A stretch of DNA of 10,000 bases from Magnetospirillum sp. (GTDB taxonomy: Bacteria; Pseudomonadota; Alphaproteobacteria; Rhodospirillales; Magnetospirillaceae): positions 1-10,000 of the forward strand of contig JAIWOG010000214.1 of assembly GCA_020217035.1 (NCBI GenBank), in the 5' to 3' direction. Shown here in pieces: positions 1 through 10,000 of this stretch. Every line of letters begins with the position of its first letter. Position 1 is the first letter of the stretch. A program made the translations under genes and the position numbers. Below the pieces are notes generated by a model, which saw only the letters and a list, made by a program, of their open reading frames with translations, ran no database searches and had not been told where the DNA came from.

Positions 1-258
1 CATACCGGCAGCGATGGCGGCGGAATTGCGGTGCTGATAGCCGATCTGAAGCAGGGTGTTCATGTTGGTCCAGGCTGTGTCCGCCTGAACCTCGGCCAAT
101 TCCGCAGCTTGGCCATCAGTTGCAGCCAGAGCTTCCTGAAGCCGCACCATGGCCTGGTTGTAAGCGTCCAGGTGGGCCATGGCCTTCCGATGGGCTTCGT
201 CGGCCTGCTGGTTGTGATAGGCGATGGCCTGGACGGCGCCGGGGGTGATGTTGTTCAT
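1..258 (-). CDS. Hypothetical helical protein, C-terminus outside window
   Basis: The first 86 codons of a minus-strand gene are present; the rest lies beyond base 1. The ATG at 258 follows the stop of the 379-aa gene by 3 bases, and a GGGGAGGG Shine-Dalgarno overlaps that stop, so the two are co-translated. The product starts MNNITPGAVQAIAYHNQQ and is rich in Ala, Gln and Glu. It looks almost wholly alpha-helical, with a probable coiled coil at about residues 15-65 and no signal peptide or membrane segment. I do not recognise the family. Its place at the end of the rep-nuclease gene string makes it part of the accessory element. The reading frame is well supported by spacing and ribosome-binding site; the function is unknown. 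Confidence 0.65.
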   Translation of the reverse strand, partial: MNNITPGAVQAIAYHNQQADEAHRKAMAHLDAYNQAMVRLQEALAATDGQAAELAEVQADTAWTNMNTLLQIGYQHRNSAAIAAGM

Positions 259-261
259 GGC

Positions 262-1401
262 TCAGCCCTCCCCAAGAATTTCGACGGACACGCGGTCGGC
301 CTCGGCCACGCTCATCTTTGCCTGATCCCAAGCGGAACCGGCCACCGCCTCGGCAATCATGCGGGCGCTGCCGGCGGCGATACCGGCTAACAACTTGCTG
401 GCGCGGTCCGCCTGGAAAACGAACGAAGCGATCTTCCAGCGCGGCTCATTCATCAGCGGTCGCCACGGTTCGTGGCCATACACCACCTTGGCCTCGCCAT
501 CGATGCCAACCCGGATGATCAGGTCGGATTCTCCCTTCTCCCCGGTGATGAAACTGCTGCGGGTCGGAGCATCCAGCCAGCGCAGGCGGATCAGCCGGTC
601 ACCGGGCATGCCTCCGACATTGACATGCACGTCGGACACCACCGACCAGCGGCGACGATGACAACGCTCCCGGCTGTCGTCGGACACCTGGTTGCGATAG
701 GCGTCGTCCAGCCCCCGACCGGTCTTCATGTCACCGGCCTTTGCCAAGAAGCCGATGGCTTCCAGCCGAGCGGCATCCTGCAGCGCCGGCACCGCATAGA
801 TACGGCTCAGGCTGGCCTTCATGTCATTATCGTTCTCAGTCGGCTGGAACACCCTGCTGGCGCGGACCTCGCCACTGTAGGACAGCGCTTCCAGCTTGCG
901 GCGACCGTCCGCCATCGGCGTTTCACGCAACAGCAGCCAGCGCGGCTTGTCGGCATAGGCCGCCATCCAGCGGATTTGCCACAACACCTTGTCGTCGAGA
1001 AGCTGATACCTGTTGATGATCTCGGCCCGGCTTTCGACCTTGCGCAGACCTTCGCCCAGCACACGGGCGGCCTGGCGCAGGCGGCCATAGGTGACCACAT
1101 GCTTTTTCCCGTCGCGATCCTGGACCGAAACAGCCGTTCCAGCGCTATCGGTGCGCGGATCGAGCGCCGCCCCGGCTTCGGCGAACGGCTTCAAAGCCGC
1201 TTCCAACTCGCGCACGTACCAACGTTCCAAAGCATCGTCGAACTTGACGCTGCCGGCCTTGGTCCCCAACTGCGCCGCGTAATCGGTCGCCCAGCGCGGA
1301 ACCTTGCCATCGGGCCATTGACCGACCTTGCGACGATGCACCACGTCGGTCAGGACGATTTCAACATGACCGGGGCGGGATGAAGTGATGGGACTGGCCA
1401 T
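262..1401 (-). CDS. Hypothetical 379-aa accessory protein
   Basis: This is a complete 379-residue ORF with normal residue composition. It starts at an ATG 3 bases after the stop of the 76-aa gene; a G-rich stretch over that stop can serve as the ribosome-binding site. It has no signal peptide or membrane span. Residues about 50-150 look helical (FDDALERWYVRELEAALKPF; LRQAARVLGEGLRKVESRAE). Residues about 150-260 contain Trp/Arg-rich stretches (WQIRWMAAYADKPRWLLL), and about 265-330 look beta-rich (LIIRVGIDGEAKVVYGHEPW). I do not recognise a catalytic motif or family. Position in the rep-led gene string suggests a plasmid or integrative-element accessory function, which is context only. The opposite strand has a long open frame here, but it is His/Gln/Pro-rich and looks like an antisense shadow. 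Confidence 0.7.
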   Translation of the reverse strand: MASPITSSRPGHVEIVLTDVVHRRKVGQWPDGKVPRWATDYAAQLGTKAGSVKFDDALERWYVRELEAALKPFAEAGAALDPRTDSAGTAVSVQDRDGKKHVVTYGRLRQAARVLGEGLRKVESRAEIINRYQLLDDKVLWQIRWMAAYADKPRWLLLRETPMADGRRKLEALSYSGEVRASRVFQPTENDNDMKASLSRIYAVPALQDAARLEAIGFLAKAGDMKTGRGLDDAYRNQVSDDSRERCHRRRWSVVSDVHVNVGGMPGDRLIRLRWLDAPTRSSFITGEKGESDLIIRVGIDGEAKVVYGHEPWRPLMNEPRWKIASFVFQADRASKLLAGIAAGSARMIAEAVAGSAWDQAKMSVAEADRVSVEILGEG

Positions 1402-1404
1402 GGT

Positions 1405-1635
1405 TCAGCCCCCCCCGTGTTGCGATTGAAGGGCGTCGGCGAGTTCAGTGGCCTTGGCCGCGACCCAACGGGCAGCAGCGACAGCATCGGCCGGCTTGAT
1501 CTGCACACGGTCGGGGCCGTCAAACAGAAAACGTTCTTCTGTCAGCAGGATCATTGCCACGCTGTCGGTGATCACATTGCTGCGCGAGAAGCCGAAGCGC
1601 TCCAACTGGATTTCAATTTTTTCAAGAGTGGTCAT
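1405..1635 (-). CDS. Small hypothetical protein (76 aa)
   Basis: The start is taken as the ATG at 1635, preceded by GGAGGATGTGACC, a good Shine-Dalgarno. The product begins MTTLEKIEIQLERFGFSRSN and is a compact acidic protein. A predicted strand-rich first half (VAMILLTEERFLFDG) is followed by a helix near residues 48-72 and a Gly-rich tail. No known domain is recognised. The frame is open upstream as far as an ATG at 1875 that overlaps the nuclease stop codon as ATGA, giving a possible 156-aa form. The extra 80 residues are basic, Pro/Arg-rich and cross a strong dyad, so I prefer the short form. The 379-aa gene follows after 3 bases. Confidence 0.6.
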   Translation of the reverse strand: MTTLEKIEIQLERFGFSRSNVITDSVAMILLTEERFLFDGPDRVQIKPADAVAAARWVAAKATELADALQSQHGGG

Positions 1636-1769
1636 GGTCACATCCTCCATCTGGATCAGGGCGGCATCGCTGGTGAGCGGCGCACCTTTTCCTCGTCGTA
1701 AAATCAGGGGGGCAAAGGCATGGATCGGGGGCTGGGCGGGGTAGCTCCCAAAACCCGCAGGGCGCGAAG

Positions 1770-1789
1770 CGAACCGCTTGCGGTTTTTT
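1770..1789 (+). terminator. Rho-independent terminator-like hairpin (plus strand)
   Basis: AACCG, loop CTTG and CGGTT are followed directly by TTTT. CTTG is a known stabilising tetraloop. Read on the plus strand this has the form of an intrinsic terminator, although no plus-strand gene ends here. It may stop antisense transcription or be half of a bidirectional structure. Confidence 0.45.
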
Positions 1790-1845
1790 GGGGCATCCCG
1801 GCCCCCGACGACGGGCGCAGCCCGGCGCTTGTCCATTGCCGACGC

Positions 1846-1866
1846 GGGGCGGAACGCCCCTTTCTT
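1846..1866 (+). terminator. GC-rich hairpin with T-rich tail, just after the nuclease stop
   Basis: GGGGC-GGAAC-GCCCC is followed on the plus strand by TTTCTT. On the minus strand the same stem lies about 12 bases past the nuclease stop with no T-tract. There it could stabilise or attenuate the mRNA rather than end it. No plus-strand gene is present to need a terminator. Confidence 0.3.
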
Positions 1867-1871
1867 GATCG

Positions 1872-2327
1872 TCATGGCGCCCCACCTGGGGCGCACCACC
1901 CTTGCTTTCTCCCCCCCTCATAGGGTTTGGCCAATCCGGCGCCGATCAGCTGGGCGGCGATGTCGGTTCCATCGGCCAAGCTCACCCTGGCCAGCAGGCG
2001 GCCATAGCGATCCCGGCCCAACTCGGACAGCACCACAGGAACCCCACGGGGAAGGAGACGACGAGCAAAAGCACTGGCTTGGCCGGCCTTCTCCCGCTCG
2101 GCCGCGCATTGGGCCAGGTCGCCTTTTTCCGGGGTGTCGAAGTGCCGCGCCCGCACCTTCTCGCCCTGCGGCGCCCCGGCATGAATGATCTGGTAGGTGT
2201 CGCCGTCGATGACGAACAAAATTTTTCCGTCAATCGACTGCGCATAAGCCGTTGAAAAACCAGACACTAGCGCCAAAACGAAGCACAGGACCGGCCATGT
2301 TTTGGTGATCGCGATCATGCTTTTCAT
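1872..2327 (-). CDS. Secreted staphylococcal-nuclease-type thermonuclease
   Basis: 151 aa. Residues 1-29 form a Sec signal peptide (basic start, hydrophobic core WPVLCFVLALVSGF, AYA cleavage site), so the enzyme should act in the periplasm or outside the cell. The mature part is an SNase (TNase) fold. VIDGDTYQI supplies Asp41 and Asp43. VRARHFDTPEK matches the RLLLVDTPE segment, giving Arg59, Asp64, Thr65 and Glu67. DRYGRLLARV supplies Arg110, the equivalent of the second catalytic arginine, and IGAGLAKPY is the conserved C-terminal element. All catalytic positions of Ca-dependent nucleases seem present. The family is known to cleave DNA and RNA. The ATG overlaps the rep stop as ATGA and is preceded by GGGAGGCGG, so translation is coupled to rep. 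SNase genes are common on alphaproteobacterial plasmids and conjugative elements. The frame is open upstream into rep, but the signal peptide fixes the start. Confidence 0.85.
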   Translation of the reverse strand: MKSMIAITKTWPVLCFVLALVSGFSTAYAQSIDGKILFVIDGDTYQIIHAGAPQGEKVRARHFDTPEKGDLAQCAAEREKAGQASAFARRLLPRGVPVVLSELGRDRYGRLLARVSLADGTDIAAQLIGAGLAKPYEGGRKQGWCAPGGAP

Positions 2328-3574
2328 GACCGCCTCCCGCGTCCACCCCGCCCCGAGGCAAGCCCCGGCGCCCGCCGCGACGCCCGCATGGCCTGCAAGG
2401 TCGCCTCGGGGGCCGGCGCCTGGCGCCGGTTCCGGCCCAGGATGCCCGACAGGTACTGTGCCCCGCTCTCGCGTATCTGGCCACCGCGCCGCATCAGCGC
2501 GGTTTCCAGCACGGCCAGGGCGGCGATGAGGCCCCAACGCTTGCGCCACGCCCGCCACACATGCGGCCACAGGGTCGGGGCGTAGGTGCGCTGTAGGCGA
2601 TCCGCCAGCGCCAAGGCGTCCTCGGTTGTTTCCGGCGGCGCTTCCGTCGCCGCCACGTCGGGCAGGAACGTCTTGATCAGCTCCAGCGCCAACGGTTCCG
2701 CCACCCCGTCGCCAGCCGCTTTCATCTCGGCCGGCTTCGCATGCTCGTTCCTGCCGAGCAACGTACATACCTCCCCTGATTGGGGGGAGGTCGGCACCCC
2801 CGCCGCACCAGCGTCGCAGCGTTCCCCCATGGCTTCGGGTTCGGGGGTGACGGGAGGGCGCCGTCCAGGCGTCCGCTTTTCCAACCTGGGGGCCGGCAAC
2901 GTAGACGATGTATGGGGGTATAGATTCTCTATACACCCCGAAGGGTGCTTAGATTTTGTACCCTCCCCCCTTCGCATCCACAAGATGCGGTCCGCTTCTT
3001 TCAAAATCCCTTCCAGGCGATAGGTGTTCGCCTCGTTGCGGGCATAGCCGCGCCGGTTTTCGATGACCACCAGCATGCCGAGATCGCGCAACTTGGCCTC
3101 AGCCGCCCGCTGGGTGGACGGCCGCACGTTCGCCCGGTTCTCAAGCTCGGAACGATAGGCGGCGAATTCACCGCTGCCCCCGGCCAGGAACAACAAGGCG
3201 TCGATCAGGCAGACCTCGGCGTCGGTCCAGGCGAATTGGGTCGCCAGCTTCCATGGCCAGCGCTTCCGCGCATGGGCAGACCTATACTTTTGAACCATAC
3301 GCCGCGACGGCCCGCGCTGGCGCCGGGGCGCCCCGGCGGCGCCTTGGTCACAAACGGCGGGACCATGATCCGCCTCCGAGGCGACGTAACGCCCCAAAGG
3401 CGCGTTGATCAGCTGCGGGGCGTGCTTGCGCCGCGCCTCCATGATCGCGGCGTCCAGCGCCGCCTGATGGCGATCCGCCGACGGCGGAACAACGGGCGGC
3501 ATCGACGACCTGGTTGCCGACGATGCCGAAAAGCTGGCCAAATACATGGCCCGCATGTGCTCAGGAATGCTCAT
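2324..3574 (-). CDS. repC: RepC-like plasmid replication initiator
   Basis: 416 aa from the ATG at 3574, which has GGAGGGG 3 bases upstream; the frame opens further to 3640 without a good site. Residues about 118-190 form a winged helix: a helix with LIDALLFLAGG, a recognition helix near RPSTQRAAEAKLRDLGML and a wing ending ANTYRL. Residues about 205-295 are a Pro/Gly-rich linker. Residues about 330-385 (WRKRWGLIAALAVLETAL, then GGQIRESGAQYLSGIL) resemble the C-terminal block of RepC proteins, where Ala-rich helices lead into a SPGGYLR-like motif. RepC is known to bind an origin inside its own gene and start replication of repABC and repC-only plasmids in alphaproteobacteria. The upstream antisense RNA and structured leader fit this. 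No repA or repB is in the window. The alternative is another wHTH replication protein. Symbol given by resemblance, not by search. Confidence 0.65.
   Translation of the reverse strand: MSIPEHMRAMYLASFSASSATRSSMPPVVPPSADRHQAALDAAIMEARRKHAPQLINAPLGRYVASEADHGPAVCDQGAAGAPRRQRGPSRRMVQKYRSAHARKRWPWKLATQFAWTDAEVCLIDALLFLAGGSGEFAAYRSELENRANVRPSTQRAAEAKLRDLGMLVVIENRRGYARNEANTYRLEGILKEADRILWMRRGEGTKSKHPSGCIENLYPHTSSTLPAPRLEKRTPGRRPPVTPEPEAMGERCDAGAAGVPTSPQSGEVCTLLGRNEHAKPAEMKAAGDGVAEPLALELIKTFLPDVAATEAPPETTEDALALADRLQRTYAPTLWPHVWRAWRKRWGLIAALAVLETALMRRGGQIRESGAQYLSGILGRNRRQAPAPEATLQAMRASRRAPGLASGRGGRGRRS
2769..2791. repeat. 8-bp inverted repeat in rep linker
   Basis: ACCTCCCC and GGGGAGGT are separated by about 7 bases in the region encoding the disordered rep linker. 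On the minus strand the second arm reads as a Shine-Dalgarno just before an ATG in the nuclease frame. The protein from that ATG would be Gly/Arg-rich and I do not believe it is made. The dyad could be part of the rep origin region. Confidence 0.35.
2905..3010. other. Candidate replication origin inside the rep gene
   Basis: This stretch of the interdomain linker is clearly richer in A/T than the flanking gene. It holds the dyad TATAGA-TTC-TCTATA (2919-2933), extended by G-C pairs to about 2914-2938, and a second weaker inverted repeat AGGGT...ACCCT near 2942-2964. In repABC plasmids oriV is known to lie within the repC coding sequence, at a dyad next to an AT-rich stretch. By analogy this is the best oriV candidate here. 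Confidence 0.35.
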
Positions 3575-3575
3575 A

Positions 3576-3595
3576 CGCCCCTCCGAGGAGGGCAT
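3576..3595 (-). promoter_or_regulatory. Hairpin sequestering the rep ribosome-binding site
   Basis: On the minus strand CCCTC (3592-3588), loop CTCG and GAGGG (3583-3579) form a tight hairpin, extended by a few more pairs towards the start codon. The second arm is the rep Shine-Dalgarno. Closed, it would block ribosome entry; repC leaders of repABC plasmids are known to have such an inhibitory element, favoured when the ctRNA binds. Confidence 0.5.
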
Positions 3596-3631
3596 GGACC
3601 GCGACAGAAAAAGGGACGTGTTAACCCGTTC

Positions 3632-3650
3632 GGAAAACACATGGTTTTCC
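3632..3650. repeat. Perfect 7-bp inverted repeat in rep leader
   Basis: GGAAAAC-ACATG-GTTTTCC lies between the antisense-RNA promoter (3652-3681) and the rep start, immediately upstream of the -35 box. It may be an operator for the antisense promoter, a leader hairpin, or an initiator-binding site. No T-tract follows on the minus strand. Confidence 0.5.
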
Positions 3651-3651
3651 G

Positions 3652-3681
3652 TTGACAGTGCGGCCTGAGCTGGGCTAGAAA
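3652..3681 (+). promoter_or_regulatory. Sigma-70-type promoter of the antisense RNA
   Basis: TTGACA (3652-3657), an 18-base spacer and TAGAAA (3676-3681) on the plus strand. The perfect -35 box is the strongest in the window. It faces away from rep and would start RNA near 3688. Nothing protein-coding lies downstream before a strong terminator at 3718-3749. Confidence 0.65.
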
Positions 3682-3719
3682 AGTCGTCGCCAAACTGACT
3701 TCTAGCCTTACGGCTCAGG
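3664..3719 (-). promoter_or_regulatory. Large stem-loop in the rep leader mRNA
   Basis: Two nested perfect inverted repeats: CCTGAGC (3664-3670) with GCTCAGG (3713-3719), and GGCTAGAA (3673-3680) with TTCTAGCC (3700-3707). They enclose a 19-base loop. In the rep transcript this gives a 15-bp stem with a small internal loop. The antisense RNA begins inside the loop, so its 5' end is complementary to the exposed loop, as expected for a kissing-type contact. Confidence 0.55.
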
Positions 3720-3750
3720 TCGCTAATCCTCAGGGTTAGCGGCCTTTTTA
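3688..3750 (+). ncRNA. Antisense ctRNA-like RNA opposite the rep leader
   Basis: A predicted transcript of about 62 nt from the TTGACA/TAGAAA promoter to the intrinsic terminator at 3718-3749. It is encoded opposite the rep leader and fully complementary to it if rep mRNA starts upstream of 3750. Size, polarity, terminator and position match the ctRNA (incA) of repABC plasmids, known to pair with the repC leader and reduce repC expression, setting copy number and incompatibility. The identification rests on architecture, not on a sequence match I could run. An alternative is an unrelated small RNA acting in trans. Confidence 0.6.
3718..3749 (+). terminator. Rho-independent terminator of the antisense RNA
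   Basis: CGCTAATCC (3721-3729), loop TCA and GGGTTAGCG (3733-3741) pair with one T-G wobble. The stem extends outward by GGT/GCC to 12 bp and is followed by TTTTT (3745-3749). This is a textbook intrinsic terminator on the plus strand. Confidence 0.8.
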
Positions 3751-3803
3751 CTTATGTCTTAGGGATATCCACGCCTTTCCATCACAAGCGTACCCTTGCA
3801 GGG

Positions 3804-3857
3804 CGCCATCCGGTTGTGCTAACACAACCACGGATTCGACTGGCTTAAATGATGGCG
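3804..3857. repeat. Nested inverted repeats at the tRNA-Glu 3' flank
   Basis: GGTTGTG (3812-3818) and CACAACC (3823-3829) form a perfect 7-bp hairpin with loop CTAA. Outside it CGCCATC (3804-3810) pairs with GATGGCG (3851-3857), which includes the encoded CCA end of the tRNA. No T-tract follows on the minus strand, so this is not an obvious tRNA terminator. It could be a processing structure or a recombinase-binding site at an att junction. Confidence 0.4.
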
Positions 3858-3928
3858 TCCCCAAGGGGATTCGAACCCCTGTTACCGCCGTGAGAGGGCG
3901 GTGTCCTAGGCCTCTAGACGATGGGGAC
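3853..3928 (-). tRNA. tRNA-Glu (anticodon CTC)
   Basis: The minus strand folds as a full cloverleaf of 76 nt. The acceptor GTCCCCA pairs with TGGGGAC, the discriminator is G and CCA is encoded. The anticodon stem CCGCC/GGCGG encloses loop CTCTCAC, so the anticodon is CTC, which reads GAG. The T arm is CAGGGGTTCGAATCCCCTT-like with an intact TTCGAAT loop. The gene starts 20 bases after the stop of the JAMM protease gene. Its 3' end faces the accessory region, the usual orientation for a tRNA used as an integration site. Confidence 0.95.
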
Positions 3929-3947
3929 GTCTGGGCGCGAGGCGGGC

Positions 3948-3977
3948 TTTATGCCTGATCCTCGGGTGCCGAGGCAA
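3948..3977 (-). promoter_or_regulatory. Possible promoter of tRNA-Glu
   Basis: On the minus strand TTGCCT (3977-3972), an 18-base spacer and CATAAA (3953-3948) could start RNA near 3941, about 13 bases before the mature tRNA. It overlaps the end of the protease gene. Both boxes are imperfect; read-through from the upstream operon is also possible. Confidence 0.35.
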
Positions 3978-4419
3978 GGGCTAATTTTGCCTTTGGCGTC
4001 CGGATGGGAACCGGGCGGAACTGGCCGCGCTTTTCGTCCAGGCGATGCGCCAGGGTTTGGATGGCCTGGCCGTCCAGCACGCCAATGATCAACCAGGCCA
4101 GTTCCGGTTCGTGGGCCATGGCGCGGTCGGTGGCGCTGGGGTCGGCGGTGCCGTCAGTGTGGGAATGGTAATGGCCGACGATGCGGTCCTTGGTGCCGCT
4201 GTCGCGCAGTTCCTTTTCCACCGCGATGCGGATGGCGGGGTCCAACTCGAAACGGTCTTCGGTGGTGGCCAGCAAATTGCCCGCCGGCACCACCCGGGTG
4301 ACACGGATCAACTGGCCCTTGCCACGGCCGATGATCAGGCCGCAGGCTTCCGCCGGAAAAGCCGCTTCGGCGGAATCGACCATCTGCTTGGTCAGCTTGG
4401 CGTCGATTTGCAGGATCAT
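3949..4419 (-). CDS. JAMM/JAB (Mov34/MPN) family metalloprotease
   Basis: 156 aa, with one JAB1/MPN domain over about residues 3-115. The zinc-binding JAMM signature is complete: Glu24 in FPAEACGLIIG, then His85-Ser-His87 in HYHSH, seven residues, Ser95, two residues and Asp98. The family cleaves isopeptide or peptide bonds after ubiquitin-like proteins. Bacterial members of this size are known to release ThiS/MoaD-like sulfur carriers or act in cysteine biosynthesis. No ubiquitin-like protein or E1-like partner is adjacent, so the substrate is unknown. The C-terminal 40 residues are a variable basic/Ala-rich tail. It is cytoplasmic, with no signal peptide. Its ATG overlaps the stop of the upstream membrane-protein gene as ATGA, so the two are coupled, and tRNA-Glu follows 20 bases later. 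Confidence 0.85.
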   Translation of the reverse strand: MILQIDAKLTKQMVDSAEAAFPAEACGLIIGRGKGQLIRVTRVVPAGNLLATTEDRFELDPAIRIAVEKELRDSGTKDRIVGHYHSHTDGTADPSATDRAMAHEPELAWLIIGVLDGQAIQTLAHRLDEKRGQFRPVPIRTPKAKLALASAPEDQA

Positions 4420-4739
4420 CGCGGGGCCGGCGCTTCGGGGGTAAGGACGAAGCTGCCCGAGACGGCGCCCGAGGCAGGGTCAAGAACGACGAAGCGTTCA
4501 GGGCCGGGGCCGGTCAGCCGCAGCACAACCCGTTCGGCGGCCACCAGCACCTGCTCGACCCGGCTGCCGGCTGGAACCGGCACCGCGACGGCGCCGAAAT
4601 CTTCCGTCACCGCCACTGGGGCGGACTTGGTTTTCGTGGCCAATTTCCCGGCCTGGGAGTACAACCCCCAGCCCAACAGGGCCAGTCCCGCGATCAGCAG
4701 GACGCCCATGAACGCCACCAGGGCCTTGATCGCTTTCAT
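4416..4739 (-). CDS. Small one-pass membrane protein (DUF6476-like)
   Basis: 107 aa from the ATG at 4739. That start puts KAIK directly before a single transmembrane helix (residues about 5-27, ALVAFMGVLLIAGLALLGWG), giving a typical signal anchor. An in-frame ATG at 4778 would add 13 residues. The rest is a small beta-rich domain (VTEDFGAVAVPVPAGSRVEQ; RFVVLDPASGAVSGSFVL), most likely periplasmic. The layout recalls the short DUF6476 proteins of alphaproteobacteria, which I recall being found beside pseudouridine synthase genes; I offer that only tentatively. It overlaps the JAMM protease gene by ATGA and is divergent from rluD. The role is unknown. Confidence 0.75.
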   Translation of the reverse strand: MKAIKALVAFMGVLLIAGLALLGWGLYSQAGKLATKTKSAPVAVTEDFGAVAVPVPAGSRVEQVLVAAERVVLRLTGPGPERFVVLDPASGAVSGSFVLTPEAPAPR

Positions 4740-4756
4740 GCCTTCGGATTCAATCC
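4728..4756 (+). promoter_or_regulatory. Possible rluD promoter
   Basis: TTGATC, a 17-base spacer and TTCAAT on the plus strand, overlapping the start of the divergent membrane-protein gene. Each box matches four of six consensus bases. The intergenic gap is only 50 bases, so some overlap of promoter and gene is expected. Confidence 0.3.
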
Positions 4757-4789
4757 TATTGTGAACATCAAGACGCAAAGACCGACATC

Positions 4790-5773
4790 GTGACCGATCC
4801 CGCCGACACCATCCTGACCCCAGCCCCGGTCACCGCCGAGGAAGCGGGACTGCGCCTGGACAAATGGTTGTCGTCACGCCTGCCCGAATTGTCGCGCACC
4901 CGCATCAAGGGGTTGATCGACGACGGCCGGGTCGGCCTGATCGGGCAGACCATAACGGACGCATCGGCGCGGGTCAAACCCGGCCAGGACTTCGTCGTCG
5001 CCGTCCCCCCCGACCGCCCCGCCGACCCAGTGCCCCAGGACATCCCGCTGTCCATCGCCTACGAGGACGACGACCTGATCGTCGTCGACAAGCCGGCGGG
5101 ATTGGTGGTGCACCCGGCCCCCGGCAGCCCCGATCAAACACTGGTCAACGCGCTGCTGGCGCATTGCGGCGAGTCGTTGTCGGGCATCGGCGGCGTCAAG
5201 CGCCCTGGCATCGTCCATCGCATCGACAAGGACACCAGCGGTCTGTTGGTAGTGGCCAAGAACGACCGCGCCCATCACGGCCTGGCCGAGCAATTCGCCA
5301 TCCATTCCCTGGAACGGGTCTATCGCGCCCTGGTCTGGGGGACCCCGATCCCCCGAGAGGGCGAGATCACCGGCAACATCGGTCGCTCGCCCCAGGACCG
5401 CAAGAAGATGGCCATCGTCAGCCATGGCGGCAAGCCGGCCCTGACCCGCTATCGAGTGCTGAAAAGCTTCGCCGGCGGCGCCGTGTCGCTGGTGGAATGC
5501 CGGCTGGCCACCGGGCGCACCCACCAGATTCGCGTCCACATGACCTCGATCGGCCACCCTTTGGTCGGCGACCAGGTCTATGGCCGCACGCGCACCGCCA
5601 AACAGAAGGCGCTGCCCGACGACGCCCGCCAGGCATTGACCAGCTTCCCGCGTCAGGCATTGCATGCATCCGTACTCGGGTTTAACCATCCTATTTCTGG
5701 GGTCATGCTGCGATTTGAAAGCCCTATACCCATTGATATCAATGAGTTGGTTTCCTATCTAGAGCCTGTATGA
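4790..5773 (+). CDS. rluD: 23S rRNA pseudouridine synthase RluD
   Basis: 327 aa, the same size as E. coli RluD. An S4 RNA-binding domain covers about residues 18-75 (LRLDKWLSSRLPELSRTRIK). The RluA-type catalytic domain covers about 88-315: YEDDDLIVVDKPAGLVVHP, then HRIDKDTSGLLVVAK with catalytic Asp146, RVYRALVWG, and the RTHQIRVHM motif at 243-251. RluD converts uridines 1911, 1915 and 1917 in helix 69 of 23S rRNA to pseudouridine and is needed for normal 50S assembly. The start is GTG at 4790; the Shine-Dalgarno is weak, and no other in-frame start lies close by. rpoH follows 136 bases later. The last 30 codons are much richer in A/T than the body. It could be a RluD-like paralogue such as RluC, but length and S4 domain favour RluD. 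Confidence 0.9.
   Translation: MTDPADTILTPAPVTAEEAGLRLDKWLSSRLPELSRTRIKGLIDDGRVGLIGQTITDASARVKPGQDFVVAVPPDRPADPVPQDIPLSIAYEDDDLIVVDKPAGLVVHPAPGSPDQTLVNALLAHCGESLSGIGGVKRPGIVHRIDKDTSGLLVVAKNDRAHHGLAEQFAIHSLERVYRALVWGTPIPREGEITGNIGRSPQDRKKMAIVSHGGKPALTRYRVLKSFAGGAVSLVECRLATGRTHQIRVHMTSIGHPLVGDQVYGRTRTAKQKALPDDARQALTSFPRQALHASVLGFNHPISGVMLRFESPIPIDINELVSYLEPV
5731..5744. repeat. 14-bp perfect palindrome at the 3' end of rluD
   Basis: CATTGATATCAATG is a perfect palindrome within codons for the RluD C-terminus, in an AT-rich stretch (about 5688-5790) leading into the rpoH leader. It is operator-like in form; chance within AT-rich coding DNA is not excluded. Confidence 0.35.
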
Positions 5774-5909
5774 TTTTTCATTATACTTGAGCGCCCAACT
5801 CTGGCATTCTCCTTCTCAGGCAGATGTGATACCACTTGAGCTGAAGCTTGGAAGGTGGCGGCCCGGATGGGAGGACCCTGGCCGCGATCTCGAGACGAGG
5901 AGACGAGAG
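5774..5909 (+). promoter_or_regulatory. rpoH upstream region with structured leader
   Basis: 136 bases between rluD and rpoH. TATACT at 5782-5787 could be a -10 box, but no good -35 lies 16-18 bases before it. Downstream, GCGGCC (5858-5863) pairs with GGCCGC (5880-5885) around a small inner GGG/CCC pairing. Then ATCTC (5887-5891) pairs with GAGAT (5907-5911), enclosing the AGGAG ribosome-binding site (5898-5902) and covering the first two bases of the start codon. The second hairpin is weak enough to melt on heating. Confidence 0.4.
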
Positions 5910-6776
5910 ATGACGGCCATATCCAGCACCCTGAACCTGGCGCCCGAGGGAAACCTGTCACGCTATCTTCAGGAAATCCGCAAGTTCCCCATGCTGGCCC
6001 CGGACGAGGAATACCAGCTGGCCAAGCGCTACCACGAGCACGGCGACCTTGACGCCGCCGACCGGTTGATCACCAGCCATCTGCGTCTGGTGGCCAAGAT
6101 CGCCATGGGCTATCGCGGCTATGGCCTGCCCTTGGGCGAACTGATTTCCGAAGGCAATGTGGGCATGATGCAGGCGGTCAAGCGCTTTGACCCCGATCGC
6201 GGCTTCCGCCTGGCGACTTACGCCATGTGGTGGATCCGGGCCGCCGTGCAGGAATACATCCTGCATTCGTGGTCGCTGGTGAAGATGGGCACCACGGCGG
6301 CGCAAAAGAAGCTGTTCTTCAACCTGCGCAAGCTGAAGGGCCAGATGCAGGCCATGGACGAAGGCGACCTGCCGCAGGAAACCGTGACCTCCATCGCCAC
6401 CAAGCTGAACGTGTCGGAAACCGAAGTGGTGAACATGAACCGCCGCTTGGCCAGCCCCGACCATTCGCTGAACGCGCCGGTGCGCATGGATGGCGAGGGC
6501 GAGTGGCAGGATTGGCTGGTGGACGACCGCGACGACCAGGAAACCGAACTGGCCGACCGCCAGGAACGCGGCATCCGCAACCAGATGCTAAGCACCGCCC
6601 TGGACACCCTGAACGAGCGCGAACGGTCGATCCTGAGCCAGCGGCGTCTGCGCGACGACCCGGCCACCTTGGAAGACTTGTCGCAGCAATACGGCATCAG
6701 CCGCGAACGGGTGCGCCAGATCGAGGTCCGGGCTTTCGAGAAACTGCAAAAAGTGATTCGCGGCGCTTCCGCCTGA
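5910..6776 (+). CDS. rpoH: RNA polymerase heat-shock sigma factor RpoH (sigma-32)
   Basis: 288 aa. The ATG at 5910 has AGGAG 7 bases upstream and gives the normal N-terminus (LSRYLQEIRKFPMLAPDEE). Region 2 runs from about 50 to 120, with LISEGNVGMMQAVKRFDPDR and the -10-recognition helix LATYAMWWIRAAVQEYIL. The RpoH box QKKLFFNLR at 132-140 is diagnostic. Region 4.2 is the helix-turn-helix at about 253-281 (TLEDLSQQYGISRERVRQIE). RpoH directs RNA polymerase to chaperone and protease promoters in heat shock. Synteny rluD-rpoH is common in alphaproteobacteria. Many of these bacteria carry two rpoH genes; which one this is cannot be told here. It ends 58 bases before a convergent small gene, with a strong stem-loop between. 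Confidence 0.95.
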   Translation: MTAISSTLNLAPEGNLSRYLQEIRKFPMLAPDEEYQLAKRYHEHGDLDAADRLITSHLRLVAKIAMGYRGYGLPLGELISEGNVGMMQAVKRFDPDRGFRLATYAMWWIRAAVQEYILHSWSLVKMGTTAAQKKLFFNLRKLKGQMQAMDEGDLPQETVTSIATKLNVSETEVVNMNRRLASPDHSLNAPVRMDGEGEWQDWLVDDRDDQETELADRQERGIRNQMLSTALDTLNERERSILSQRRLRDDPATLEDLSQQYGISRERVRQIEVRAFEKLQKVIRGASA

Positions 6777-6782
6777 CGCGCC

Positions 6783-6817
6783 AAGGGGACGGGGCCGATG
6801 GACCGCCCCGTCCCCTT
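6783..6817. terminator. Bidirectional terminator between rpoH and the convergent operon
   Basis: AAGGGGACGGGGC (6783-6795) and GCCCCGTCCCCTT (6805-6817) form a perfect 13-bp stem with a 9-base loop. It begins 7 bases after the rpoH stop and ends 17 bases before the stop of the minus-strand 60-aa gene. The T-tracts are short on both sides (TT), so termination relies on the very stable stem. Confidence 0.7.
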
Positions 6818-6833
6818 CGTCGCAAGGATGCGG

Positions 6834-7016
6834 TCAGGGTTTGACCTTGCGGTTGCCCTTCACCGCTTCCAGACACTCGGCGAACAGGTCCAAATATTCC
6901 TTGCGGTTGTAAGGAACCCCCGATTCCGGGTACCGCCATTCCAGTTCACGCACGTCTTGGGTCAGGCGATAAGCCACCAGTTCGGCGCTGTCGCCATCCA
7001 ATTCCATATCGGCCAT
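6834..7016 (-). CDS. Small acidic hypothetical protein (60 aa)
   Basis: 60 residues starting MADMELDGDSAELVAYRLTQ. The ATG at 7016 has AGGA about 7 bases upstream. It lies 26 bases after the stop of the secreted-protein gene, as third gene of a minus-strand operon. It looks like a compact helical protein with a Trp-Arg-Tyr-Pro segment (ELEWRYPESGVPYNRKEYLD) and a basic tail, without signal peptide or membrane span, so it is probably cytoplasmic. The family is not recognised. Ribosome-binding site, spacing and terminator placement all support a real gene. Confidence 0.7.
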   Translation of the reverse strand: MADMELDGDSAELVAYRLTQDVRELEWRYPESGVPYNRKEYLDLFAECLEAVKGNRKVKP

Positions 7017-7042
7017 GATGGTGTCCTTGGTTCTTGATGGTT

Positions 7043-7855
7043 TCAGTTGATGGCCGCCGAAGTGGCGCCGGTCATGCGGAAATACTCGATCCAGAATTCC
7101 CGCAAGTCCCTGATGGTGGTGTCGGCCAGGACCGGGCGATTCTTGCGGTCCCAGTGATTGATCTTGAAGGAGTGCACCACCACCCCCTCCAGACGCGGCA
7201 CCAGATCCAGTTCGGCGGCCTTGGTCAGCAGCTTGTCGCGAGAGCGGGGATCCAAGGTGGCGTCCGGGGTGGGCGCCAGGTCGGCCAGCCTTCCCTCGAT
7301 CATGTCAGAAGCCAGAACCAGGCCGACCATCTGCCCGCGAAACATGCGCCCCACATCGGCGATGGTGGCGACGATCGCCGATTGCGGCGCTTGCGGCAGG
7401 CGGTTCTTTTCGTGCACGGCCGCCGCCACCGCGGCCTTGGCCTCGGCCTCGAAGACCGGGGTGTCGGTGCGCAAGTCCTGGGAACTGGCCGGCTTGCTGA
7501 AAAACGAGGCCGCGCCCTGCGGAACGCCGGGCCTGCAATCGTCGAACAGCACCTGACTGGAGCCGACCGATTCGCGAATGGTGGCAACGCGCAGACGCTG
7601 ACCTTGTTCCAACATGCCCAGCGCCTTGTCCAGGGCGGCTTCGGCGTCCTTGCGATCCTGGGCGTTGGTCACCGGCAGGGTGCGGTCGATCAACAAGGTC
7701 ACCACCTTGGGATTTTCAACCTTATAGAATTTGCAGAACTTGCCGTCCTCGCGCACCGGGGGCGCCGCTTCGGCCTGCCTGCCGGAAGCAGCCTGGGCAG
7801 GGACGGCAAGACCCAACAGCATGCCCGTCAGGACGACGGCGATTGACCGGATCAT
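7043..7855 (-). CDS. Secreted protein with von Willebrand A-like core
   Basis: 270 aa. Residues 1-22 are a Sec signal peptide (RSIAVVLTGMLLGLAVPAQA, cut before Ala23), so the mature protein is periplasmic. KVVTLLIDRTLPVT at about 50-64 looks like the first strand and metal-site loop of a vWA (Rossmann-like) domain, followed by a helix (DAEAALDKALGML) and strand (RLRVATI). GLVLASDMIEG at about 178-188 resembles the later strand-Asp element. The usual metal site DxSxS is only partly kept (Asp57-Arg-Thr59). Cys41 and Cys107 could form a disulfide. It overlaps the upstream membrane-protein gene by ATGA, so the two should work together at the inner membrane. The vWA assignment is by pattern only; the exact role is unknown. 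Confidence 0.8.
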   Translation of the reverse strand: MIRSIAVVLTGMLLGLAVPAQAASGRQAEAAPPVREDGKFCKFYKVENPKVVTLLIDRTLPVTNAQDRKDAEAALDKALGMLEQGQRLRVATIRESVGSSQVLFDDCRPGVPQGAASFFSKPASSQDLRTDTPVFEAEAKAAVAAAVHEKNRLPQAPQSAIVATIADVGRMFRGQMVGLVLASDMIEGRLADLAPTPDATLDPRSRDKLLTKAAELDLVPRLEGVVVHSFKINHWDRKNRPVLADTTIRDLREFWIEYFRMTGATSAAIN

Positions 7856-9069
7856 GACAATTCTCCACCGAATTCCTTGCGCATTTCATCCTTCAAGCGG
7901 TTGATGCGGTCGACGCCGAAAACCGGCGGCACCGGCTGCGACGTCCGCTTGCTGCGGTTGCCGTCCTGATACGAGGTCAAACGTTCGGCCAGCACGCTAA
8001 GCGCCATCTCGACCATGGGACGACGGCCCTTCAGATTGTTTTCCATCTTGTTCTTCAGTTGGGCGATTTCATATTCGACCCGCTGGTTGTCCAGGTTCAG
8101 GCGGCGCTGGCGGTCGTCGAAGGTGTCGATCAGCTTTTGCCGCGCCTGCGAGAACTGGCTTTCCAAATCATGGAAGACCTTGCGGGCCTTGTCGCATTCC
8201 CGGGTCAGGCGCTGATAGTCGGGATTGCGGTCATGGTGGAAGATGGACACCACGCAGCCGGCGACGAAGACCGCGCTGTTAACCGCCAAGAAGAACATTC
8301 CGGCCTGGGACGCGTCGGCTTGGGGCCGGCCATAGAACTCGATGCCGACGAATTGCTGGCGCAACGAGTAAATGGTGACGATCAGGGCCACGGACAGCCC
8401 CACCAGCATCACCACCATCAGCCAGAACAACCAACGGCTGCCGCTGAAGATCTGCGGCTGACGCAAGGTGCGCCCCAGAGTATGGGCGAAGTAAACCATG
8501 ATCCCCGAAAGCGCCAAGGCGACGACCATCGAGGTGAAGGTGGATTCCCTGAAGATGGCCTTCACCGCCGGAATGTTGATCGGCAGTTCGGCGCCAAAGA
8601 TCATGATGAAGAACAGCAGATAGGTCACCGACCCCATGTAGCTTTGCAGCGGGCGGTCGCCTTCGGCCTGACGGATGCTTTTCAGCTGTTCGTCCAGGTT
8701 GTCCAGCTTGTCCTTGGCGTGGCGGAAAGTGGCGCCGCGCGGGCCGACGTTTTCCGCCAGCGCGTCCTCGGCGGCGCGACGCTCGGCCAGCAAGTTCTCG
8801 CGTTCGCCGCTATAGGCGGCGGCGCGTTCCTTCAGCCCCGTCAACTGGGCGCCCAATTCGTCCAGCTCGATATCCGCGTCCTTCATATAGGCGGTGATGT
8901 CGGTCTGGGTGCGGCTGATGATGTTCAGTTGATAGCCGGTGAACACGGCGGCCCCGGCCTCGGGCTCGCCGGCCAGGGCGTCGGCCTCGCCACGGCGGTA
9001 ATCCGCCACCGAGTCCTTACGCGTAAAGGTTTGATAATAGTGCAGTGTACGACCAATTCCGCCAAACAT
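7852..9069 (-). CDS. Four-TM membrane protein with coiled coils
   Basis: 405 aa. Order of parts: a soluble N-terminus with a long charged coiled coil (about residues 60-135); TM helices at about 146-166, 179-198, 213-235 and 257-276; a second coiled coil (about 285-345, ECDKARKVFHDLESQFSQAR); and a polar tail ending with PVPPVFGVDRINRLKDEM. With four spans, both coiled coils should be on the same side, probably cytoplasmic. No enzymatic motif is visible and I do not recognise the family. The ATG at 9069 follows GGGGCTTGGCGTC. It is first gene of the operon with the secreted vWA-like protein and the 60-aa protein, and divergent from a second coiled-coil membrane protein. A scaffold in an envelope complex is the natural inference. 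Confidence 0.8.
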   Translation of the reverse strand: MFGGIGRTLHYYQTFTRKDSVADYRRGEADALAGEPEAGAAVFTGYQLNIISRTQTDITAYMKDADIELDELGAQLTGLKERAAAYSGERENLLAERRAAEDALAENVGPRGATFRHAKDKLDNLDEQLKSIRQAEGDRPLQSYMGSVTYLLFFIMIFGAELPINIPAVKAIFRESTFTSMVVALALSGIMVYFAHTLGRTLRQPQIFSGSRWLFWLMVVMLVGLSVALIVTIYSLRQQFVGIEFYGRPQADASQAGMFFLAVNSAVFVAGCVVSIFHHDRNPDYQRLTRECDKARKVFHDLESQFSQARQKLIDTFDDRQRRLNLDNQRVEYEIAQLKNKMENNLKGRRPMVEMALSVLAERLTSYQDGNRSKRTSQPVPPVFGVDRINRLKDEMRKEFGGELS

Positions 9070-9108
9070 GACGCCAAGCCCCTACCTTAGCCGTGCCTAT
9101 TGTTACGA

Positions 9109-9137
9109 TAGATACACGGTATTATGGTGCATGTGAA
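9109..9137 (-). promoter_or_regulatory. Possible promoter of the membrane/secreted operon
   Basis: On the minus strand TTCACA (9137-9132), a 17-base spacer and TATCTA (9114-9109) would start RNA near 9102, 33 bases before the ATG. The -35 box lies inside the left arm of the 12-bp inverted repeat, so a protein bound there would block or alter this promoter. The -10 box is a weak match; CATAAT nearby is an alternative. Confidence 0.4.
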
Positions 9138-9201
9138 CATTTTTCCATGTATTTTTCAGACATACGCCTACTTTTTGTATGCATACCATTTCACATGCAC
9201 C
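9126..9201. promoter_or_regulatory. 12-bp inverted repeat flanking the divergent intergenic region
   Basis: GGTGCATGTGAA (9126-9137) and TTCACATGCACC (9190-9201) are perfect reverse complements 52 bases apart. Between them lie the palindrome GTATGCATAC (9177-9186) and related CATGTAT and ACATACG words, in AT-rich DNA unlike its GC-rich surroundings. Arms this far apart suggest two operator half-regions for one regulator controlling both directions, rather than a simple hairpin. Confidence 0.6.
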
Positions 9202-9217
9202 CTTTGGGCGACACCGC

Positions 9218-10000
9218 ATGAGCAATTCCGCCGTAACCGTCATTTCACCGCCCGGTCGGTCCCGGGCACCGTCGCCCGGAGTCTGGGGCCGCTTCATGTC
9301 GTGGCTTTTCCCCAATCCGGCGGACCCGACACAACAGCGCCTGGAAGCTTTGGAGGTCATCTCAAGCCGCACATGGTTGCCCTCGCCGCTGCGCCAAGAA
9401 ATCAGCCGCTCGGTGACCCAGGGCCGGATGGTCCAGTCGTTACGGGACAGCGCTTCGCCCAATATCGATCCCTGGGACGTGGAACGCGTCGCCTCGGGCT
9501 GGCAGACGGAAGCCGACGGGTTGATCCACAAGGCCCGCTTCGTCGCCGTCCTCAGCGGCATTGCGGAAATCTTGCTGTTCGCCGCCTTCGTGGCGCTGAC
9601 GCTATACGTCGTCGGCGATTACGTCTTCCCCCCGGGCGAAGCCGTCGACAACAGGATCAAGAAGATCCTGCCCCATGAGTGGCGGGTCGAGGAAAGGCCC
9701 AACTTGTCCGACATGTTCGTCGCCACGCTGCGCCTGTGCGCATTGGCGGCGGCGGCCACCTTGTCCATGGTTCTGGCCATTCAATTGTTCTGGTCGCGCG
9801 GCCCGCGCCGCTGGGGAATGGTGTTCGCCATCAGCGTCTCGGCCCCGGCCATCGTCGTCTTTTCGGCGCTCAGCTACACCATGGCGCACCAGATCAACCT
9901 GTACCACCAATCGGTCCTGGAGCGCGAAGCCGCCGAAGCCCATTTGGTCGAACTGCAAGCGCAAAAGCGCCAGGCGGAAGCGGAACTCGTGGTCGAAGCC
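9218..10000 (+). CDS. Multi-TM coiled-coil membrane protein, C-terminus outside window
   Basis: The first 261 codons of a plus-strand gene with no stop before the right edge. The ATG at 9218 has no clear Shine-Dalgarno; another in-frame ATG lies near 9296, so the start is uncertain. The N-terminal 100 residues are soluble (LEALEVISSRTWLPSPLRQE; DPWDVERVASGWQTEADGLI). TM helices follow at about 108-133, 167-192 and 198-221. From about 230 a charged coiled coil begins (QSVLEREAAEAHLVELQAQK) and continues past the edge. The build, helices plus Ala/Glu-rich coil, resembles the divergent four-TM protein in layout, although no clear sequence repeat between them is visible. The family is unknown. 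It is probably a partner in the same envelope complex. Confidence 0.75.
   Translation, partial: MSNSAVTVISPPGRSRAPSPGVWGRFMSWLFPNPADPTQQRLEALEVISSRTWLPSPLRQEISRSVTQGRMVQSLRDSASPNIDPWDVERVASGWQTEADGLIHKARFVAVLSGIAEILLFAAFVALTLYVVGDYVFPPGEAVDNRIKKILPHEWRVEERPNLSDMFVATLRLCALAAAATLSMVLAIQLFWSRGPRRWGMVFAISVSAPAIVVFSALSYTMAHQINLYHQSVLEREAAEAHLVELQAQKRQAEAELVVEA

Follow-up and report, generated by a model that had tools for sequence, protein, structure and literature searches.

What does a stand-alone rep-like gene do directly behind a tRNA gene? We asked this of a 10,000-nt stretch of Magnetospirillum sp. DNA (GenBank assembly GCA_020217035.1, contig JAIWOG010000214.1, positions 1 to 10,000), here called the window. 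Its rep-like gene (rep; 2324..3574, minus strand) encodes 416 aa from an ATG at 3574 that is preceded by the Shine-Dalgarno-like GGAGGGG; an alternative GTG start at 3640 would give an open reading frame (ORF) of 438 aa (2324-3640, minus strand). Upstream on the same strand lies an intact tRNA-Glu gene with anticodon CTC (3853..3928). An earlier note on this DNA, made from the letters alone, had described a stand-alone rep ORF beside this tRNA, and the description holds: repA and repB were not found upstream of rep, where tRNA-Glu and chromosomal genes stand. The note had also proposed that the tRNA gene took the place of repA/repB. Here our reading departs from it, because the tRNA is the integration target of a mobile element, related copies of which lie behind tRNA-Ala, tRNA-Arg and other tRNA-Glu genes. 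We consider it very probable that the window carries the end of an integrative and conjugative element (ICE) equipped with a plasmid-type replicon, made up of a rep initiator, an antisense RNA repressor of ~60 nt and an origin inside rep.

An integrated element at tRNA-Glu and its circular sister

Judged by its sequence, the window holds the attL end of an ICE at the 3' end of tRNA-Glu(CTC), one of a family found in Magnetospirillum and relatives. The ICE fills positions 1..3867 of the window and continues into neighbouring parts of the same genome, which was held as pieces of ~10 kb. The window is piece C304, and C303, C302 and C301 extend it leftwards by colinearity with plasmid pMSR-1 of M. 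gryphiswaldense (NC_009353.1) and its chromosomal copy; a homologue of pMSR-1 gene 2554-2862 reads unbroken across the C304/C303 junction. The 15-bp attL core CCCTTGGGGACGCCA (3853..3867, minus strand) occurs once in the window, once in C301 (G000:C301:2286) and in neither C302 nor C303. The far copy equals the tRNA-Glu end, and the arm before it is the one also seen in pMSR-1; 31,567 nt separate the two core repeats if the pieces abut. At the left end the arm motif CAGTCGAATCC (3832..3842, minus strand), which reads CGCCGAATC in most relatives, is inverted with respect to the right-end GATTCGG arm. The far end was located by reading the neighbouring pieces; a pattern guess for it gave one place in C296, which was not used.

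An unoccupied site was found in genome G012, where tRNA-Glu is followed by GACGCCA-AGCGAATCAATG, identical to the 12 bases after the far core. Beside tRNA-Glu in G007, 103 nt of the far flank had a match at 76%. The stretch comprising tRNA-Glu and a JAB gene was found in 13/13 genomes of the genus, including the window's own. None of the 12 other loci matched the rep end (the G009 contig ends just beyond the tRNA and the G010 contig inside it). The tRNA-Glu itself was detected in 11 of these 12; its anticodon is TTC in G009 and CTC in the other 10. The earlier note suggested a replicon that had been captured in the chromosome or could leave it. The att repeats, the unoccupied site and the circular sister described below bear this out; the note's "repC-only" replicon was too small a description for the end of a conjugative ICE.

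The assignment as an ICE follows from direct-repeat att ends together with an integrase, and from a relaxase together with type IV secretion genes, all of which are present by sequence. The element encodes a relaxase (PF03432 with TraI_middle), NikA-like, Toprim, zeta-toxin-like and DUF2786 proteins and a large serine recombinase (PF00239/PF07508), and its VirB/TraG region consists of DNA blocks colinear with annotated pMSR-1 genes. Which enzyme moves the element? In the related UT-4 element and in MSR-1 copy B the large serine recombinase was the only match to PF07508 or PF00589, neither of them showing a PF00589 match, and we propose that this recombinase integrates and excises the family. 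To our knowledge, large serine integrases rarely use tRNA ends. A tyrosine recombinase of pMSR-1 was rejected as the integrase because an IS91-type transposase gene follows it and because copy B and the UT-4 element lack PF00589. The zeta-toxin-like kinase gene of the window element lies at L034 7427-8002, and a similar gene was seen at L151 9389-9979, in the G048 locus.

A circular form is on record for a sister of the window element. pMSR-1 aligned to positions 2531191-2577966 of the 4,365,796-bp chromosome G008, presumed to be an MSR-1 assembly, in two blocks of 99.96 and 99.99% identity. The integrated copy is flanked by the 18-bp ATCCCTTCCGGGACACCA at 2531191 and 2577967, of which the circle has one, and the att site of pMSR-1 shows 13-bp inverted arms around the core when read by eye. 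These alignments indicate that pMSR-1 represents the circular form of a sister element, of which an integrated copy exists as well. Like the window element, pMSR-1 has rep, an SNase gene, the RNA unit described below, the att core, the serine recombinase and VirB genes; unlike it, it is recorded as a plasmid, is also found integrated and is ~11 kb shorter than its integrated copy. In PMC5920173 (as with all papers given by PMC number here, an excerpt of the source) the MSR-1 genome is one 4,155,740-bp contig, and the word "plasmid" is absent from its main text. "PMSR-1" carries another meaning in the excerpt of PMC10470508, and the words "conjugative" and "integrative" do not occur in that of PMC7860042.

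How widespread are relatives of rep? A search of ~5.8 billion proteins, with 7994 candidates scored, gave 13. Six carry a source name, in each case "hypothetical protein", and all three organisms named there are Magnetospirillum. A second protein-database search returned the same 13 proteins, and a third gave 2 proteins without a name. By tblastn against 72,556 plasmid records, rep had two matches, both in circular records: pMSR-1 at 69% identity and a Magnetospira QH-2 plasmid at 27%. No other Rep family was found among the proteins scanned there, namely those of 10 of the 39 annotated genes of pMSR-1 and 10 of the 34 of the QH-2 plasmid. The PLSDB type of pMSR-1 is rep_cluster_1792, given there without the gene behind it. 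Ten of 99 genomes (the window's own and relatives) have a rep homologue, and a profile of seven members was positive in 12 of 317 genomes of the order. Among viral contigs, 10 stretches fitted a pattern and none was a relative.

The tRNA context recurred. Four close loci have a tRNA gene immediately upstream of rep on the same strand: Glu in the window, Ala in MSR-1 copy C, Arg in M. moscoviense and Ala in UT-4. The distant G070 locus (24% identity) has tRNA-Met upstream and, as in the window, an SNase gene after rep. In copy C (L029 8566-9519) the tRNA-Ala is intact, rep is cut at ~330 aa and the rest of pMSR-1 is matched in scattered stretches only, so that this copy looks to be decaying. 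Between rep and the tRNA the window also has an inverted imperfect copy of the target end (GGATGGCGCCC; 3801..3811, minus strand), whose sequence in relatives tends to change along with that of the target. Summed over 13 loci, the match was 113, compared with 65.8 for shuffled letters (sd 3.9, maximum 77, n=500), and swapping partners among loci reached 113 in 9 of 5000 trials; these loci are not independent, as several share targets. At three of them (mosc1, mosc2 and G046a) the own match was weak (6) and below some matches to other loci.

The remaining genes of the window can be described briefly. An SNase-family nuclease of 151 aa (1872..2327, minus strand) adjoins rep, as in relatives too, with a match at 11 of 18 loci searched. 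Two element ORFs of unassigned function follow on the same strand, one at 1405..1899, with its true start probably at ~1635, and one of 379 aa at 262..1401, with a marginal PADLOC match to DruK (E 0.0033). On the chromosomal side of the tRNA, the JAB gene (3949-4419) was set aside as part of a defence system despite PADLOC matches (best E 2.1e-06); its stretch was matched in 13/13 genomes of the genus.

A predicted control RNA opposite the rep leader

Is rep controlled in the way of a plasmid initiator? Opposite its leader lies a predicted antisense unit resembling those of counter-transcribed RNAs (ctRNAs; 3652..3755, plus strand). Its putative promoter consists of TTGACA (3652-3657), an 18-nt spacer and TAGAAA (3676-3681), and its terminator of a 13-pair hairpin (3717-3745) and a T run; the predicted RNA extends from ~3687 to 3749, about 60 nt. 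Taken alone, this promoter and terminator could be chance occurrences: neither a promoter scan nor a strict promoter pattern reported anything at the unit, and a terminator scan of 2000-4500 found 2 terminators compared with 2.2 in shuffles. The unit rises above chance by its conservation across loci. In aligned upstream regions TTGACA is invariant at a near-fixed distance (7/7 training loci and 6/6 further loci), accompanied by the -10-like TAAGAA or TAGAAA and the terminator, G027 being the row that lacks the unit. It was present in 7/7 window-type loci of the genus with an upstream region and at 6 loci in another genus. Of the 99 genomes, 8 contained strong matches to a covariance model of the unit, 13 in all (65.9-118.1 bits): 7 at known rep loci, namely the training loci or their twin, and 6 new ones in genus g7. 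The next match scored 38.7 bits; matches below 39 bits were taken as chance, as 37 of the 99 genomes show some match at E≤0.01. At E≤1 the model had no match in the G070, QH-2, G097, G027 and G014 loci. The G070 locus (L017 2848-2960) has an antisense TTGACA-17-GATAAT of its own; a hairpin followed by a T run, unreported by the terminator scan, can be read by eye there.

The pairing of this RNA is also conserved. In an alignment of seven sequences 95.7% of cells pair, compared with at most 49.5% when the alignment is slid, and 6 pairs change on both sides, a number reached by 3 of 500 shuffles. With 13 sequences, in an alignment that was fitted to the covariance model and is thus biased towards it, two-sided changes affect 10 pairs and 24 cells (5.3 and 7.9 in shuffles, 0/500 reaching either; at most 7 pairs and 10 cells after sliding by one). 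The predicted RNA also folds more stably than its shuffles, with a z of -4.98 in the window and of -2.3 to -4.7 in four others. The earlier note had seen a promoter-RNA-terminator unit of ctRNA size here, and with 13 conserved loci and compensatory changes this view is upheld for a predicted RNA. The covariance search that it had suggested came out otherwise: Rfam ctRNA_p42d (RF00489) had no match in the window at E≤5, nor in 3600-3800 at E≤10. The 11 matches of that model elsewhere in the genome (15-32 bits, the unit not among them) were discarded because such matches also occur in 14/14 control genomes, and the best of them looks like a plain terminator.

On the sense strand, the leader of the rep mRNA would form in order a long hairpin, a second hairpin, a U-rich stretch and a hairpin around the Shine-Dalgarno sequence. 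The long hairpin (3664..3719, minus strand), the putative target of the antisense RNA, has the loop GUUUGGCGAC and compensatory changes among relatives. Its UUGGCG loop may resemble IncI-type antisense targets. The last hairpin (3578..3592, minus strand), a candidate read by eye, could hide the Shine-Dalgarno sequence by CCCTCC/GGAGGG pairing. An attenuator, with AAAAAGG pairing with CCUUUUU, is also possible; it was not preferred over translational control because the downstream stem is weak.

Does the control RNA always stand above the same gene? At 6 of the 13 RNA-unit loci the window-type gene is missing. In G046a the unit precedes a 392-aa protein above the Pfam RP-C cut-off, which an SNase gene follows. 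In G048 it precedes a 381-aa helix-turn-helix protein behind tRNA-Glu(CTC), with JAB, pseudouridine-synthase and sigma-70-type genes as neighbours, as in the window; here (L151 3778-5278), in another genus, an element occupies the chromosomal tRNA-Glu site used in the window and has the control RNA in common, though not the protein that follows. In G050b, G046b and G047 ORFs of 216-219 aa come after the unit, with SNase matched after two of the three; those of G050b and G046b, the two scanned, contain a helix-turn-helix below cut-off, and the G050b unit lies behind tRNA-Glu(TTC). In G050a (L152 3991-4094) the RNA unit is kept and no ORF over 200 aa follows. The N-termini of these replacement proteins resemble P0009, one of five window-family members compared, at 35-46% over 52-101 Ala-rich residues with the low-complexity filter off.

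Candidate origin, possible RepC kinship and rival explanations

Where would replication start? A+T content was highest near nt 475-650 in each of six rep genes profiled (in one also at 225). In the window the A+T peak coincides, at about nt 600 of rep, with a perfect 7-bp palindrome, GTATAGA-GAA-TCTATAC on the rep strand (2918..2934), a candidate origin element. Perfect palindromes of 6-7 bp with a 3-nt loop occupy the homologous place in 8/8 close relatives, with four arm sequences. AT-rich palindromes were also placed by eye close to the corresponding position in three distant relatives, and several rep genes contain further palindromes at positions that are not shared. Synonymous-codon shuffles of six genes rebuilt a palindrome at the site in 11, 0, 10, 5, 0 and 32 of 2000 cases. 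The ten RP-C-positive genes scanned had single palindromes, among them one at nt 592 and an AT-rich one at nt 926, and no shared site, which sets them apart from the window family. In our reading the origin probably lies inside rep at the conserved palindrome.

The Rep product, with its winged helix and C-terminal block (W..R.G..AALAVLE..I...YLxGIL), had been called RepC-like in the earlier note. The winged helix is indeed predicted and a weak profile-profile likeness to RepC was seen, while a Pfam RepC match is lacking: at E≤1, RP-C (PF03428) and RP-C_C (PF11800) matched 0/12 family members and did not match the window protein alone, so that the profile search put forward in that note was negative. 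The distant QH-2 homologue has an RP-C_C match below cut-off (E 0.012). Profile-profile comparison with eight RepC proteins, two of which (L051 and L061) lack a normal C-terminus and were retained, gave a weak Prob 13 for the close family and 60 with distant members included, with alignments falling on the winged helix or the C-terminal block. Against two RP-C-positive relatives the values were 13 and 92, respectively. In six comparisons the real score was not matched by any of 59 column shuffles or by the reversed alignment. These weak scores, together with the occurrence of the same control RNA before an RP-C-positive protein, are the grounds for a RepC kinship. It is quite possible, without being the reading we favour, that Rep is a true RepC family member diverged past the profile; the profile-profile matches fall in the right places and the control unit is shared with an RP-C protein, but no family member matches the Pfam models and the close family alone scores poorly. 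By its layout the locus would work like a repC/ctRNA replicon, whereas family membership is not supported, as neither Pfam RP-C nor Rfam ctRNA_p42d matches. A ctRNA gene antisense to the leader, a RepC trait, is indicated by layout and covariation for the predicted RNA; repA and repB, a trait of repABC, are absent.

Several observations weigh against our reading of an ICE end with an antisense-controlled replicon. As printed, MSR-1 copy B shows no core repeat at its right end. In UT-4 a 14-base search reported no repeat, the one of 12-13 bp being a reading by eye. The ~11 kb that pMSR-1 (L025 near 19950) lacks relative to the integrated copy (G008:C1:2551142-2562121) include the part that matches the relaxase of the window genome; the plasmid may therefore be a deletion derivative, or the product of an assembly collapse at repeats. 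SNase had no match at 7 of the 18 loci, and the rep homologues of G027, G070 and QH-2 come without an RNA-model match at E≤1. The Rep protein gave nothing at E≤1 against Pfam and NCBIfam, and its profile gave Prob 1 against three other RP-C-positive proteins. Finally, the -10 (TAGAAA/TAAGAA) differs from the MSR-1 consensus TATaaT (PMC9549626, excerpt), and as it lies inside the 5' arm of a hairpin, the RNA may lack that hairpin.

Could the 416-aa protein instead serve the ICE as a regulator or excision factor with a winged helix, controlled by an antisense RNA? Both kinds of winged-helix protein are known from ICEs, and the protein here matches no Rep family and resembles only winged helix-turn-helix proteins. 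The excerpt of PMC11963761 names an excision factor or regulator of this kind. However, homologues sit on circular plasmid records with no other Rep among the 20 proteins scanned there, an RP-C protein takes the place of the gene at the same control unit, and a palindrome at the A+T peak of the gene and a large protein with a conserved C-terminal block also speak for an initiator; we regard the alternative as improbable. The replication unit might also be a relic, a former plasmid that is now a silent chromosomal remnant, as the truncated rep of MSR-1 copy C and the missing ORF in G050a would suggest; with the window parts intact, both ends present and the RNA pairs, palindrome and att arms conserved, this is unlikely to be right. 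As for the plus-strand unit, the atypical -10 and a regional terminator count no higher than in shuffles would suit a terminator that ends a longer transcript, or a palindrome bound by a protein, either of which can be conserved as a DNA site too. The invariant TTGACA, the compensatory changes in a hairpin opposite the rep leader and the same layout in repC plasmids (PMC10194956, excerpt) argue for a discrete antisense RNA instead, and we consider this third alternative very unlikely.

How would a replicon of this kind serve an ICE? In the mechanism that we favour, the presumed initiator is encoded just inside attL, and the ~60-nt RNA from the opposite strand of the leader would repress rep by pairing with its mRNA from the conserved hairpin loop, lowering translation of rep or transcription read-through. 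After excision by the serine recombinase, replication would protect the circle against loss during and after conjugation. In the integrated state rep has a tRNA gene immediately upstream, and the antisense RNA would keep rep silent within the chromosome. More tentatively, the locus may be a portable end cassette, composed of att arms, the inverted copy of the target 3' end, the antisense RNA with its structured leader, and an exchangeable initiator with an internal origin. Such a cassette would move between tRNA genes and swap its initiator (window type, RP-C or other helix-turn-helix type) while keeping the RNA, which might act as a safety catch silencing the replicon behind the strong tRNA promoter.

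Comparison with known systems

If this is correct, ICEs and antisense-RNA-controlled plasmid replicons, which are usually separate, are joined in one compact cassette in a tractable genus, the recorded plasmid pMSR-1 becomes the circular state of an ICE, and the control RNA is retained while the gene beneath it changes. In the 4,365,796-bp assembly, the reading predicts an antisense RNA on the minus strand that starts near 2,531,375 and ends at about 2,531,312, with a second copy at about 2,010,504; it also predicts an origin at the palindrome in rep and use of tRNA ends by the serine recombinase. In titles and abstract openings of the literature, most subscription journals being outside the coverage, no such element and no ICE with an antisense-RNA-controlled initiator was described.

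Among streptococcal ICEs with large serine integrases (PMC4701971, excerpt) the likeness is in the large serine recombinase and the direct end repeats. The serine-integrase targets given there are rumA, mutT, traG and hsdM, and tRNA 3' ends are given for tyrosine integrases, whereas the elements described here use tRNA 3' ends. In repABC plasmids such as R. etli p42d (PMC3155836, excerpt), a ctRNA stands before the initiator and the origin lies within repC in an A+T-rich stretch, a candidate likeness to the locus studied here, which differs in having no repA/repB. The closest layout is that of stand-alone repC replicons with a ctRNA, each cloned module of which replicated (PMC10194956, excerpt). 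The pSmeLPU88b repC module shares with the window a stand-alone initiator of ~400 aa (presumed here), an antisense RNA opposite the leader and the absence of repAB; it differs in that here Pfam RP-C fails, ctRNA_p42d has no match and the unit lies inside an ICE at a tRNA. Finally, the modular Pseudomonas replicons REx-C/REx-R (PMC5304414, excerpt) combine a control module containing a putative antisense RNA with different Rep genes, as we observed across the RNA-unit loci, while here the host group is different and the control module is tied to the attachment site of an ICE.

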